This document shows, one piece after another, positions 30,449 to 41,711 of a stretch of 64,000 nucleotides of DNA. Under the pieces are notes generated by a model, which was given only the letters and a program-made list of their open reading frames with translations, was not told where the DNA came from and ran no database searches. The stretch is from contig NZ_CP108476.1 in the NCBI RefSeq assembly GCF_036226465.1, positions 5,704,001 to 5,768,000 on the forward strand. Direction: 5' to 3'. The position numbers and the translations under genes are program-made. The stretch is from Kitasatospora sp. NBC_01250 (GTDB lineage Bacteria; Actinomycetota; Actinomycetes; Streptomycetales; Streptomycetaceae). Each line of letters starts with the position of its first letter. Position 1 is the stretch's first letter.

Positions 30449-32731
30449 TCAGGCCCCGCTGTCCGGCTCGAAGCGGATCACCACGGCCTTGGAGGTGGGC
30501 GTGTTGCTGATCTCGGCCGTCGAGTCGAGCGGGACCAGCACGTTGGTCTCCGGGTAGTAGGCCGCCGCGCCGCCGCGGGCGACCGGGTAGTGCACCACCT
30601 TGAAGTGCGGCGCGCGCCGGTCCACCCCGTCGCGCCACTCGCTGACCAGGTCCACGTAGCCGCCCTCGGTCAGGCCGAGTTCGGCCGCGTCCGCCGGGTT
30701 GACCAGCACCACCCGCCGACCGCCGGTGATGCCCCGGTAGCGGTCGTCCAGGCCGTAGATGGTGGTGTTGTACTGGTCGTGCGAGCGCAGCGTCTGCAGC
30801 AGCAGCCGCCCGGCGGGGACCTCGGGAGCGGTCAGCTCGTTGACGGTGAAGTTGGCCTTGCCGGTGGCGGTGGGGAAGGTGCGCGAGTCGCGCGGGCCGT
30901 GCGGCAGCGCGAAGCCGCCCGGCGCCTTGACCCTGGCGTTGAAGTCGGTGAAGCCCGGCACCACGCCCGCGATCCGGTCGCGGATGCTGCCGTAGTCGGC
31001 GGCGAACTCCTCCCACGGGATCGGGTCCGCCGGGCCGAGCGCGGCGCGGGCCAGCCGGCAGACGATCGCCGTCTCGGAGAGGATGCCGGGGGCCGGCGGA
31101 CGCAGCCGGCCCTGCGAGGAGTGGACCATGCCCATCGAGTCCTCGACGGTGACGAACTGGTCGCCGCGCTCGGTGGTGTCCCGGTCGGTGCGCCCGAGGG
31201 TGGGCAGGATCAGCGCCCGGGCGCCGGTGACCAGGTGCGAGCGGTTGAGCTTGGTGGAGACCTGCACGGTCAGCCGGCAGTTGCGCAGCGCGGCCTCGGT
31301 GACCTCGGTGTCCGGGGTGGCCGCGACGAAGTTGCCGCCCATCGCGAAGAAGACCTTGACCCGCCCGTCGCGCATCGCCCGGATCGACTCCACCGCGTCG
31401 TAGCCGTGCTCGCGCGGCGGCCGGAAGCCGAACTCCCGCTCCAGCGCGTCCAGGAAGGCGGGCGCGGGGCGCTCGAAGATGCCCATGGTCCGGTCGCCCT
31501 GCACATTGCTGTGCCCGCGCACCGGGCAGACTCCGGCGCCGGGGCGGCCCACATTGCCGCGCAGCAGCAGGAAGTTGACCACCTCGCGGATGGTCGGCAC
31601 CGAGTGCTTGTGCTGGGTCAGGCCCATCGCCCAGCAGACGATGACCTTCTTCGACGCCAGGACGTGCCGGGCCAGCTCCTCGATCTGCTCCCAGGGCAGA
31701 CCGGTTGCGGCGAGCACCTGCTGACGGTCCGTCGACTCCGCCTCGGCGGCGAACTCCTCGAAGCCGTGGCAGTGCTCGGCGACGAAGGCCGTATCGACGC
31801 CGCCGTCGGCGGCCAGGATCAGCTGGTTGAGCGCGCGGAACAGCGCGAGGTCGCCGCCGAGGCGGATCTGCAGGAACAGGTCGGTGAGCTTGGTGCCGCC
31901 GCCGACCAGGCCGCGGGCGTGCTGCGGGTTCTTGAACCGCTCCAGGCCGGCCTCCGGCAGCGGGTTGACGCTGACGATGGTCGCGCCGGCCCGCTTGGCC
32001 CGCTCCAGCGCGGAGAGCATCCGGGGGTGGTTGGTGCCCGGGTTCTGGCCCGCCACGATGATCAGGTCGGCCTGGTAGAGGTCCTTGAGGCTGACGCTGC
32101 CCTTGCCCACCCCGAGGGTCTCCACCAGCGCCGAACCCGAGGACTCGTGGCACATGTTGGAGCAGTCCGGCAGGTTGTTGGTGCCCAGCTTGCGGGCGAA
32201 GAGCTGGTAGCTGAAGGCGGCCTCGTTGCTGGTGCGGCCCGAGGTGTAGAAGGCGGCGCCGTCGGGGGTGTCGAGCGCGTTGAGCTCCTCGGCGATGATC
32301 GCGAAGGCCTCGTCCCAGCCGATCGGCGCGTAGTGGGTGGCGCCCTCGGCCAGCAGCATCGGCTCGGTGAGCCGGCCCTGCTGGCCGAGCCAGTAGCCGG
32401 AGCGCCCGGCCAGCTCGGCCACCGGGTGCTCGGCGAAGAACGCCCGGGTGATCCGGCGCTCGGTGGCCTCCTCGGCCACCGCCTTGGCGCCGTTCTCGCA
32501 GAACTCGGCGGCGTGCGGCTTGTCCGGCTCCGGCCAGGCGCAGCCGGGGCAGTCGAAGCCGCCGTGCTGGTTGACCTTGGTCAGGGTGGCCAGTGTGCGG
32601 CGGGGGCTCATCTGCTCGTGGGCCATCGACAGGCTCTGCCGCACGGCCTTGAGCCCTGCGGCGGCGTTCTGCGGGGCGCCGACCTCGGGGGCGTCCTGCG
32701 CCGGGTCGCTCTGCGGAGCCTGCTTGGCCAT
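30449..32731 (-). CDS. FdhF/YdeP-family molybdopterin oxidoreductase, 760 aa
   Basis: Molybdopterin-dinucleotide enzyme of the YdeP group: N-terminal Cys set GGFDCPGCAWPEPDKPHAAE then FCENG (Cys about 61, 64, 78), substrate-pocket region NMCHESSG, cofactor segments such as LIIVAGQNPGTNHPRMLSAL and RGNVGRPGAGVCPVRGHSNV, and a C-terminal MopB-binding domain starting near LRSHDQYNTTIYGLDDRYRG. YdeP is linked to acid resistance in E. coli, but no substrate is assigned. ATG at 32731 has GGAGGTGG. It begins 23 bases after the FAD/NAD(P)-binding gene, so it is likely in the same operon as the amino-acid permease. Confidence 0.9.
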   Translation of the reverse strand: MAKQAPQSDPAQDAPEVGAPQNAAAGLKAVRQSLSMAHEQMSPRRTLATLTKVNQHGGFDCPGCAWPEPDKPHAAEFCENGAKAVAEEATERRITRAFFAEHPVAELAGRSGYWLGQQGRLTEPMLLAEGATHYAPIGWDEAFAIIAEELNALDTPDGAAFYTSGRTSNEAAFSYQLFARKLGTNNLPDCSNMCHESSGSALVETLGVGKGSVSLKDLYQADLIIVAGQNPGTNHPRMLSALERAKRAGATIVSVNPLPEAGLERFKNPQHARGLVGGGTKLTDLFLQIRLGGDLALFRALNQLILAADGGVDTAFVAEHCHGFEEFAAEAESTDRQQVLAATGLPWEQIEELARHVLASKKVIVCWAMGLTQHKHSVPTIREVVNFLLLRGNVGRPGAGVCPVRGHSNVQGDRTMGIFERPAPAFLDALEREFGFRPPREHGYDAVESIRAMRDGRVKVFFAMGGNFVAATPDTEVTEAALRNCRLTVQVSTKLNRSHLVTGARALILPTLGRTDRDTTERGDQFVTVEDSMGMVHSSQGRLRPPAPGILSETAIVCRLARAALGPADPIPWEEFAADYGSIRDRIAGVVPGFTDFNARVKAPGGFALPHGPRDSRTFPTATGKANFTVNELTAPEVPAGRLLLQTLRSHDQYNTTIYGLDDRYRGITGGRRVVLVNPADAAELGLTEGGYVDLVSEWRDGVDRRAPHFKVVHYPVARGGAAAYYPETNVLVPLDSTAEISNTPTSKAVVIRFEPDSGA

Positions 32732-32754
32732 TGTCGCCCACCTCCAGCTTGGGA

Positions 32755-40729: not shown

Positions 40730-40742
40730 GAGGAGCCGACCC

Positions 40743-41711
40743 ATGACCCGCACCCGCCTGCCCCGCCTGCTGCTCGCGCTCACCGCCGCCCTGGCTCTGG
40801 CCGGCTGCGCCAGCGCCACCGCCGATCCCGGCCCGGCCGCCGCCGCCGGCACGGGCACAGGCATCAACCTGACGCCCCAGCAGAACCGGATCAGCACCCC
40901 GAAGGTGGATTCGATCGCCGCGCTGGTCCCCGCGGACGTGCGCGCCCACGGCACCCTGGAGGTGGTCGACTCCCTCGGTACCGTCCCGCCGCTGGACTTC
41001 TACGCCACCGACGACAAGACCGTGATCGGCGCCGAACCCGACCTCGCCACCCTGGTGGCCGACGTCCTCGGCCTCAAGGTGCAGTTCCACCCCGAGAGCT
41101 GGGAGAACGTCTTCGTCGGCCTGGACAGCGGCAAGTACGACGTCGGCTTCACCAACATCACGGTGACCGAGACCCGCAAGGAGAAGTACGACTTCGCCAC
41201 CTACCGGCTGGACAACCTGGCCTTCGAGGCCAAGAAGGGCGCCGACTGGAAGGTCACCGGTCCCAGGGACGTGGCCGGCCGCACCATCGGCGTCTCCTCC
41301 GGCACCAACCAGGAGAAGCTGCTGCTGGACTGGAGCGCCCAGGACGTGGCGGCCGGCCTCAAGCCGGTGAAGATCGCCTACTACCAGAACTCCTCGGACT
41401 ACTACCTGGCGCTCGGCTCGGGCCGGATCGACGCCTGGGTCGGGCCCAACCCGACCAGCGCCTTCCACGCCGCGCAGACCGGGCAGACCCAGGTGATCGG
41501 CACCTACTCGGGTGCCGGGGCGAGTCTGCAGGGCAAGATCGCGGCCACCGTCAAGAAGGGCAACCCGCTGATCACCGCGGTCCAGGCGGCGCTCGACGAG
41601 GTGATCAGGAACGGGACGTACGGGCAGGTGCTGCAGCGCTGGGGGCTGTCGAACGAGGCGGTGCCGAGCTCCGAGCTCAACCCGCCGGGCCTGCCGAAGT
41701 CCGACGGCTAG
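40743..41711 (+). CDS. Second ABC transporter substrate-binding lipoprotein, 322 aa
   Basis: Signal MTRTRLPRLLLALTAALALA then lipobox Cys (LAGC). SBP_bac_3 domain: ALVPADVRAHGTLEVVDSLG, IGAEPDLATLVADVLGLKVQ, GKYDVGFTNITVTETRKEKY, RIDAWVGPNPTSAF. Clearly a paralogue of the protein at 38067 but divergent, so it may widen or shift substrate range. Last gene of the operon, 13 bases after the ATPase, ATG with GAGAGGAG upstream. Confidence 0.92.
   Translation: MTRTRLPRLLLALTAALALAGCASATADPGPAAAAGTGTGINLTPQQNRISTPKVDSIAALVPADVRAHGTLEVVDSLGTVPPLDFYATDDKTVIGAEPDLATLVADVLGLKVQFHPESWENVFVGLDSGKYDVGFTNITVTETRKEKYDFATYRLDNLAFEAKKGADWKVTGPRDVAGRTIGVSSGTNQEKLLLDWSAQDVAAGLKPVKIAYYQNSSDYYLALGSGRIDAWVGPNPTSAFHAAQTGQTQVIGTYSGAGASLQGKIAATVKKGNPLITAVQAALDEVIRNGTYGQVLQRWGLSNEAVPSSELNPPGLPKSDG

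Follow-up and report, generated by a model that had tools for sequence, protein, structure and literature searches.

A two-operon locus of Kitasatospora with a hairpin-bearing Cys leader and a possible role in acquiring sulfur from S-substituted cysteines

Organization of the locus

A stretch of 64,000 nucleotides from the genome of Kitasatospora sp. NBC_01250 (one contig of 9.0 Mb; genome positions 5704001-5768000, forward strand), hereafter called the window, contains at positions 30449-41711 two divergent operons that together code for nine proteins, with genes overlapping or closely spaced. The leftward operon consists, in this order, of a permease of an ATP-binding cassette (ABC) transporter (PermA), a monooxygenase-like protein of the type using flavin adenine dinucleotide (FAD) and nicotinamide adenine dinucleotide phosphate (NADPH), called here the FAD protein, and a molybdopterin oxidoreductase (YdeP). 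The rightward one starts with a Cys leader peptide, followed by a luciferase-like flavin monooxygenase (LLM), a GNAT acetyltransferase, a substrate-binding protein (SBP1), a second permease (PermB), the ATPase and a second binding protein (SBP2). A previous sequence-only reading had listed two permeases, one ATPase, two SBPs, a GNAT, an SsuD-like LLM, a FAD protein and YdeP; all of them are present, and domain families could be assigned to them. The features, in window coordinates, are:

30449..32731, minus strand: FdhF/YdeP-family molybdopterin oxidoreductase (YdeP), 760 amino acids (aa); TIGR01701, 943 bits; a genus-level neighbour of doubtful membership
32755..34716, minus strand: FzmM/CreE-fold FAD/NADPH monooxygenase-like protein (FAD protein), 653 aa, with an altered substrate chamber; PF13454 (NAD_binding_9); PDB 8cp2, E 1e-99
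34713..35738, minus strand: PermA, polar amino-acid ABC permease, 341 aa, overlapping the start of the FAD gene; PF00528; TIGR01726 above cut-off
35936..36013, plus strand: Cys leader peptide MNAAQPLVTRDHIDFGRVWSAACRG; conserved in 73 of 80 loci
35966..35994, plus strand: RNA hairpin within the leader open reading frame (ORF), GACCACAUCGAC-UUCG-GUCGnGUGUGGUC; 98.7% of cells paired; z -3.97
36023..36040, plus strand: weak terminator-like hairpin GGGCCG...CGGCCC past the leader stop; consensus pairs in alignment A3; z -1.10 alone
36422..37585, plus strand: LLM, SsuD-clade luciferase-like flavin monooxygenase without the SsuD sulfonate anchors, 387 aa; PF00296; TIGR03565, 202.6 bits (cut-off 518.2)
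37582..38070, plus strand: GNAT N-acetyltransferase, 162 aa; PF00583 and further GNAT Pfam families
38067..38999, plus strand: SBP1, family-3 binding lipoprotein, 310 aa; PF00497
39039..39965, plus strand: PermB, polar amino-acid ABC permease, 308 aa; PF00528; TIGR01726 above cut-off
39962..40729, plus strand: ABC ATPase, 255 aa, the sole one of the locus; PF00005; best NCBIfam model TcyN, 314.6 bits (cut-off 406)
40743..41711, plus strand: SBP2, family-3 binding lipoprotein, 322 aa; PF00497; cystine SBP model, 102 bits (cut-off 312)

Conservation and sulfur context

Searches with the FAD protein gave full or partial matches in 56 of 70 genomes of the genus (E <= 1e-120) and in 116 of 297 genomes of the family, spread over 12 of 17 genera (E <= 1e-150). 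We compared its neighbourhood in two overlapping sets, the best 80 of at least 564 confirmed relatives and 40 loci hand-picked for spread, with genes called by a purpose-written script; as controls, 20 stretches were taken from genomes of the family at round coordinates chosen arbitrarily. The 80 loci include Streptacidiphilus as well as Crossiella, Umezawaea, Kutzneria and Actinophytocola, the last four of which we take to be Pseudonocardiaceae. Counted exclusively, since PermA also matches the PermB query and inflates the non-exclusive PermB counts, PermA was found in 67 of these loci, SBP1 in 66, the ATPase in 63, GNAT in 57, PermB, SBP2 and LLM in 51, 51 and 50, and YdeP in 21. Contig ends truncate some of the 80; co-occurrence was counted in 64 full loci. 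PermA and SBP1 co-occur strictly there (53 with both, 11 with neither), and LLM and GNAT are co-conserved (35 with both, 6 with LLM only, 9 with GNAT only and 14 with neither; p 0.0002).

Relatives' loci contain SsuABC, SsuE, SorA-like, DszC/SfnB-like and TIGR03860 enzymes. With these as markers (SsuA, SorA-like, DszC/SfnB-like, SsuE, SsuD-like, the TIGR03860 enzyme and its partner, and LLM), 68 of the 80 and 37 of the 40 loci had at least one, against a single control stretch of the 20 (L181), which carries SsuA/SsuB with a leader of its own. Excluding LLM from the markers, the counts were 40/80 and 17/40, against 1/20. Because the two sets overlap and the species are related, these counts are not independent trials. 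The TIGR03860 enzymes (417 and 404 bits; cut-off 279.7), SsuA_fam (201) and SsuE TIGR03567 (221) score above their cut-offs; the partner of TIGR03860, LLM2, is just below (243 and 260), and the SsuD-like (454, against 518), sulfite dehydrogenase and DszC/SfnB markers are also below theirs. In the 64 full loci, the SsuD-type LLM and the TIGR03860 pair tend to substitute for each other (8 with both, 33 with LLM only, 14 with the pair only, 9 with neither; Fisher p 0.002, relatedness uncorrected). The ssu genes near some loci have their own leaders. An organosulfur role, claimed earlier from the letters alone, is backed by the marker counts, by the leader and by the Ssu, Sor, DszC/SfnB, SsuE and TIGR03860 genes of the relatives, and we consider it very likely that the locus serves in organosulfur acquisition.

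YdeP behaves differently. It is found near the FAD gene in 19/40 and 21/80 loci and, in the 40-locus set, is confined to this genus plus one genome of another (L069). In several species (L050, L052, L053, L054 and L055) a divergently coded kinase gene separates it from the FAD gene, and it still adjoins the locus in two genomes that lack the FAD protein there (L201, L203). Given its narrow distribution and the intervening kinase gene, YdeP need not belong to the pathway; we have set it aside as a member, and it is probably an incidental neighbour. At the other end, directly past SBP2, two Ser/Thr kinase-domain proteins lie in tandem (window 41754-43028 and 42949-44229). Kinases of the same cluster adjoin the locus in 15 of 41 stretches compared, being located between YdeP and the FAD gene in some species.

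A hairpin inside a Cys leader

The claim that a cysteine-type leader heads the rightward operon held: the ORF MNAAQPLVTRDHIDFGRVWSAACRG precedes it, and Cys leaders sharing the core R.HID(F/L)(G/C)RV(W/C)S are present in 73 of the 80 loci, always upstream of and divergent from the FAD gene, and in none of the 20 control stretches. With this recurrence, a placement without exception and empty controls, it is not a chance match. The search fixed the amino acids and left the Gly and Val codons free; by the DNA core the count is 74 of 80, and one locus, L150, has this core and falls outside the 73 defined by peptide. Cys codons were counted with a stricter pattern, which matched 74 loci, one of them without a Cys codon.

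Codons of the core are fixed as well. Among 75 core copies, the Gly codon is GGT in 73 of 73, against 6.3% in the called genes of the window and the 40-locus set, and the Val codon is GTG in 75 of 75, against 42.4% usually; the first Cys codon is TGT (UGU) in all 73 leaders with such a codon, against 5.5% in the genes of the first 41 stretches. At the same position, the 12 Gly codons in further leaders of these loci, ssuA-type ones included, are GGC in nine cases, GGG in two and GGA in one, and never GGT. These fixed codons form a UUCG-capped hairpin, GACCACAUCGAC-UUCG-GUCGnGUGUGGUC (-16.7 kcal/mol, z -3.97), in which 98.7% of the cells (38 distinct rows) are paired, against 20 to 40% when the partners are slid. 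Of the 75 leader copies, one from the window and the others from 74 loci, 41 entered alignment A2 and 26 alignment A3; in A3, the GGGCCG/CGGCCC hairpin after the leader has two pairs with changes on both sides. The leaders of L111 and L118 have Cys codons in place of the Gly and Trp codons and hence additional Cys codons inside the hairpin.

Against the NCBIfam model of the Cys-rich leader Ms4527A (NF042936) the peptide reaches 27.1 bits, below the cut-off of 45. A search of window 35700-36500 against Rfam, up to E 5, gave no match, so that a known RNA family was set aside for that interval, and among the listed titles and abstract beginnings of CC-licensed PMC papers there was nothing on this locus or on a Cys leader of Streptomyces or Kitasatospora. 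The hairpin in the coding sequence of the leader seems not to have been catalogued before.

The core might instead be DNA, an operator for a regulator binding between the divergent operons, as its 7-bp inverted repeat (GACCACA...TGTGGTC) and the copies with no near same-strand gene downstream would allow. However, the inner pairs and the GGT codon, needless in an operator spacer, are also invariant, the repeat arms are offset by one base, and the sequence lies within the ORF of a Cys leader whose UGU codon is fixed, so that we consider an operator unlikely. Attenuation by Cys, judged from these sequence features, is the probable mode of action of the leader.

Two flavin enzymes with altered active sites

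The only sequence-based PDB match of the FAD protein is 8cp2/8cp5 (E 1e-99). This enzyme, titled FzmM in the PDB, is the L-aspartate N-hydroxylase of Streptomyces sp. V2 (PMC10404684). An AlphaFold model (pLDDT, the predicted local distance difference test score, 81.6; 16 sequences) retrieved 8cp2 with Foldseek at template modelling scores of 0.80/0.86; the class B FAD/NADPH fold with a helical substrate domain is shared by the FAD protein and FzmM/CreE. Across 41 copies of the FAD protein, the cofactor-site residues are kept (W51 in 39, with two gaps, N62 in 41 and R577 in 41). The substrate chamber is not: none of R266, R276, R412, N413 and R416 survives in any copy. R266 is Lys in all 41, R276 is Ala, Pro or Thr, R412 is Tyr or Phe, N413 is Gly in 35 and R416 is Pro in 29; R409 of FzmM falls on a gap or Leu depending on the alignment. 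All five residues, and the motif RDLRNExR, are retained in 8cp2, in two homologues on Streptomyces plasmids (H1, H4), one adjoining a lyase-family gene and AMP-binding enzymes and the other in a different gene set, and in a paralogue at 2.437 Mb of the Kitasatospora genome itself. A second paralogue, at 5.238 Mb, has the variant motif RDLRDVLR. The paralogue with the full chamber motif (L010, genome positions 2436807-2438717) is itself a candidate for a true L-aspartate N-hydroxylase.

Aspartate N-hydroxylation is rejected as the function of the FAD protein, the Arg/Asn chamber being lost in 41 of 41 copies. Since the chamber is replaced here and kept in the controls, the protein probably uses the same scaffold for a different, less anionic substrate. 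Either S-oxygenation, a step like that of CmoO, or N-oxygenation could be its reaction.

LLM has as its best PDB match the alkanesulfonate monooxygenase 7jv3, with 1nqk and 1m41 as further best matches, and is well below the cut-offs of both the SsuD equivalog TIGR03565 (202.6 against 518.2 bits) and the CmoJ/YxeK-type TIGR03860 (81 against 279.7). YtnJ, of CmoJ type (1yw1), is a remote match (E about 7e-7). We mapped SsuD positions onto LLM through chain 7jv3 in 28 copies, the window included. R226, H228 and R297, which we take to be the residues of the SsuD sulfonate site in this numbering, are replaced by Ala (28/28), Arg (28/28) and Thr (27/28, Ser in the other), and Y331 and W196 are retained in all 28. 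Score and lost anchors exclude a true SsuD; the TIGR03860 score and the remote YtnJ match exclude a CmoJ orthologue. As the three anchors are replaced, LLM is better described as a member of the SsuD clade that probably does not bind its substrate as a sulfonate. Unlike SsuD systems, the genes of the locus include no FMN (flavin mononucleotide) reductase.

Transporter and acetyltransferase

Among NCBIfam families, the permeases and the ATPase score best with cystine models, all below cut-off (for PermA, the cystine permease model), and for SBP2 a cystine model ranks second. In both SBPs, the motif of amino-acid SBPs retains its Arg. The Asp of the aligned solved amino-acid SBPs is absent, with Ser or a gap in SBP1 and Gly or Pro in SBP2, depending on the alignment; the stretches found in its place, STINGLR and GPNP, show extensive conservation in 65 and 49 homologues, respectively. 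In GlnH the corresponding Asp clamps the free alpha-ammonium group, and its loss hints at substrates that would be N-blocked. The acetyltransferase was identified by Pfam as a GNAT (PF00583), a family assignment from which the substrate class is not readable.

The leader at other sites

We converted the hairpin leader into a searchable RNA model (R1), whose sites resemble the model by construction. In the Kitasatospora genome it has one high-scoring site (85 bits), the next (28.8 bits, E 0.03) being ahead of an arylsulfotransferase-like gene. Of 297 family genomes, 189 contain it; in the class, 18 of 296 genomes do, all 18 belonging to Streptomycetaceae. At 34 hand-picked sites away from the FAD gene (two of them, L205 and L206, copies of each other), the first downstream gene was LLM in 19, LLM2, the partner of TIGR03860, in 4, an SsuE-like gene in 1 and something else in 10. 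The same leader heads same-strand LLM2-TIGR03860 operons elsewhere in genomes (L195, L197-L199). The other 10 comprise two DUF4395 genes, each with a CxxC protein, two DUF1684 genes, a small opposite-strand call (L214) and five orphans; for DUF4395 and DUF1684, one of each pair was checked by Pfam. In L196 and L212, two proteins follow the hairpin leader, a DUF4395 membrane protein and one that bears CxxC and has no Pfam match, possibly a redox pair of the sulfur regulon. At two orphans (L216, L217), the opposite-strand product starts with MFGIIRPCRHR and ends Cys-rich, and orphans are kept in several genomes.

A general Cys-leader pattern matched six times in the same genome (the reversed pattern, once), this locus included and one match being outside any short ORF. 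The other leaders, at 2253731, 4418281, 6741942 and 6860109, precede a cysteine dioxygenase, an arylsulfotransferase-like protein, a sulfite/nitrite reductase and a 2-oxoglutarate-Fe oxygenase, respectively.

A possible route to cysteine

The explanation that best accommodates these data, to which we give a probability of about 0.5, is a cysteine-starvation locus that would acquire sulfur from S-substituted cysteine-type compounds by attenuated import and oxidative C-S cleavage. S-substituted cysteines as the main substrate have, on sequence grounds, slightly less than even odds. What the sequence data show directly is the gene content and its conservation, the leader with its hairpin, the altered active sites and the sulfur genes nearby; we infer the catalytic steps, which SBP goes with which permease, how attenuation works and what the substrate is. 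These would fit together as follows. When charged Cys-tRNA is scarce, ribosomes would stall at the rare UGU codon or codons of the leader, altering the folding of its hairpin and of the following one and permitting read-through into the rightward operon. Import would pair SBP1 with PermA and SBP2 with PermB, both using the single ATPase. GNAT would then acetylate an amino group, the FzmM-fold FAD/NADPH protein, where present, would oxygenate the substrate, most likely at sulfur, and the SsuD-clade LLM, dependent on reduced FMN (FMNH2), would cleave the C-S bond, leaving generic cellular enzymes to reduce and deacetylate the product to cysteine.

Several findings weigh against this explanation. 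Nine of the 12 hairpin pairs are invariant and, of the others, two vary in a pair-preserving manner (A-U to G-U, C-G to U-G) and one by unpaired cells only; as no pair changes on both sides, the evidence for the hairpin is conservation and not covariation. The terminator-like hairpin downstream is weak (z -1.10 alone) and kept in most rows of A3, though not in all. Five of the 73 leader loci (L147, L149, L157, L160 and L162) have no marker gene downstream, and the orphan leaders L216, L217, L218, L226 and L228 face an opposite-strand gene, with the next same-strand gene 1.9-2.0 kb away. PermB and SBP2 are both missing from many relatives (each present in 51/80). The hairpin leader also occurs without a FAD protein match (E <= 1e-120) in 5 of 70 genus genomes (G040, G047, G061, G062 and G068). 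In the three of them that were read (L200, L201 and L203), PermA, LLM, GNAT, SBP1 and the ATPase are present with no FAD gene adjoining PermA; L200 and L203 also have PermB, which was not seen in L201. The FAD protein is thus dispensable. No M20 deacetylase (PF01546) was found in the locus, the nearest of 13 genome matches being ca. 120 kb off, in a search covering this deacetylase family alone. Finally, FzmM, CreE and PcxL, the relatives of the FAD protein described in PMC10404684, oxygenate nitrogen, not sulfur.

Sulfonated amino acids (cysteate, homocysteate, taurine) might be the imported compounds, to be desulfonated after N-oxygenation of an aspartate-like or 2-aminoethylphosphonate-like sulfonate by the FAD protein, with LLM releasing sulfite. 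LLM is indeed nearest to alkanesulfonate monooxygenases, some loci have Ssu and SorA-like genes nearby, and, according to PMC10404684, the FzmM chamber binds both L-Asp and sulfate and PcxL makes 2-hydroxyiminoethylphosphonic acid. However, the residues expected to hold the anion are gone from both enzymes (R226, H228 and R297 of SsuD; R266, changed to Lys, R276, R409, R412, N413 and R416 of FzmM), and the nearby ssu genes have separate leaders, so that a sulfonate route appears improbable. Less probable still is a mere cystine or cysteine uptake locus, with the flavin enzymes in unrelated or broad detoxification, to which the cystine models of the permeases and ATPase (best, below cut-off) and of SBP2 (second best) would point, in view of the single overlapping run and co-conservation of LLM, GNAT and transporter genes and of the acidic residue, whose role is presumably that of the solved amino-acid SBPs, missing at the aligned place in both SBPs.

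Use of S-substituted cysteines remains our preferred explanation. Much of the sulfur in soil is organic, and to our knowledge the actinobacterial genes that release it are largely unassigned. Through this locus, a gene set that is widespread and uncharacterised becomes linked to starvation for cysteine, and a re-tooled branch of the FzmM/CreE N-hydroxylases, enzymes known from biosynthetic pathways, acquires a function that can be tested. R1, in turn, provides a searchable RNA element that marks further regulon members. A broader proposal, which we regard as rather doubtful, is that Streptomycetaceae would have a second, non-Bacillus cysteine route from S-substituted, possibly N-acylated cysteines, in which an FzmM-fold flavoprotein re-tooled from aspartate N-hydroxylation would oxygenate the sulfur substrate, an anchor-less SsuD-clade LLM would cleave the C-S bond, and a whole regulon (TIGR03860 operons, DUF1684 and DUF4395 at other sites) would be under an undescribed hairpin Cys leader RNA. 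Unexpected here are the re-tooled FzmM-fold flavoprotein and the leader with its hairpin, the latter being new.

Comparison with known systems

The FAD protein resembles FzmM/CreE in its whole fold and in W51, N62 and R577, and differs in having no Arg/Asn chamber and in lying outside any nitrosuccinate-type gene set. LLM shares with SsuD/MsuD the family (PF00296) and the best PDB matches, and differs in its score below the equivalog cut-off and in the replaced R226, H228 and R297. The leader is similar to the mycobacterial Cys leader attenuators (Ms4527A, NF042936), reportedly treated by Canestrari and colleagues in 2020, in that a short ORF containing Cys codons precedes a sulfur operon; in contrast to them, it has a locus-specific hairpin formed by fixed codons and scores below the family cut-off.

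The closest overall likeness proposed by the sequence-only reading was to tcyJKLMN-sna-cmo of Bacillus. There, TcyJKLMN comprises two SBPs, two permeases and one ATPase, and the operon is controlled by CymR/YtlI. The window locus matches this system (ytm/ytn) and yxe/scm in its two SBPs, two permeases, one ATPase, GNAT and luciferase-like monooxygenase, and its relatives carry TIGR03860 enzymes. It differs in an LLM of the SsuD clade and not of TIGR03860, in the extra FzmM-fold flavoprotein and in the leader peptide that heads the operon. The proposed resemblance therefore stands for the make-up of the transporter and fails as a family match, the LLM not being a TIGR03860 enzyme and the locus having no M20 deacetylase. 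The FAD protein and YdeP had been singled out as lacking a Bacillus counterpart: the former proves to be an additional FzmM/CreE-fold flavoprotein, more than a spare part, and the latter need not belong. The Bacillus-type pathway proceeds by acetylation, S-oxidation by CmoO, C-S cleavage by CmoJ, reduction and deacetylation (PMC10863075), and by analogy acetylation followed by oxidative C-S cleavage would likely take place in the window locus as well. The resemblance to Tcy-Sna-Cmo is one of function, not of family membership.

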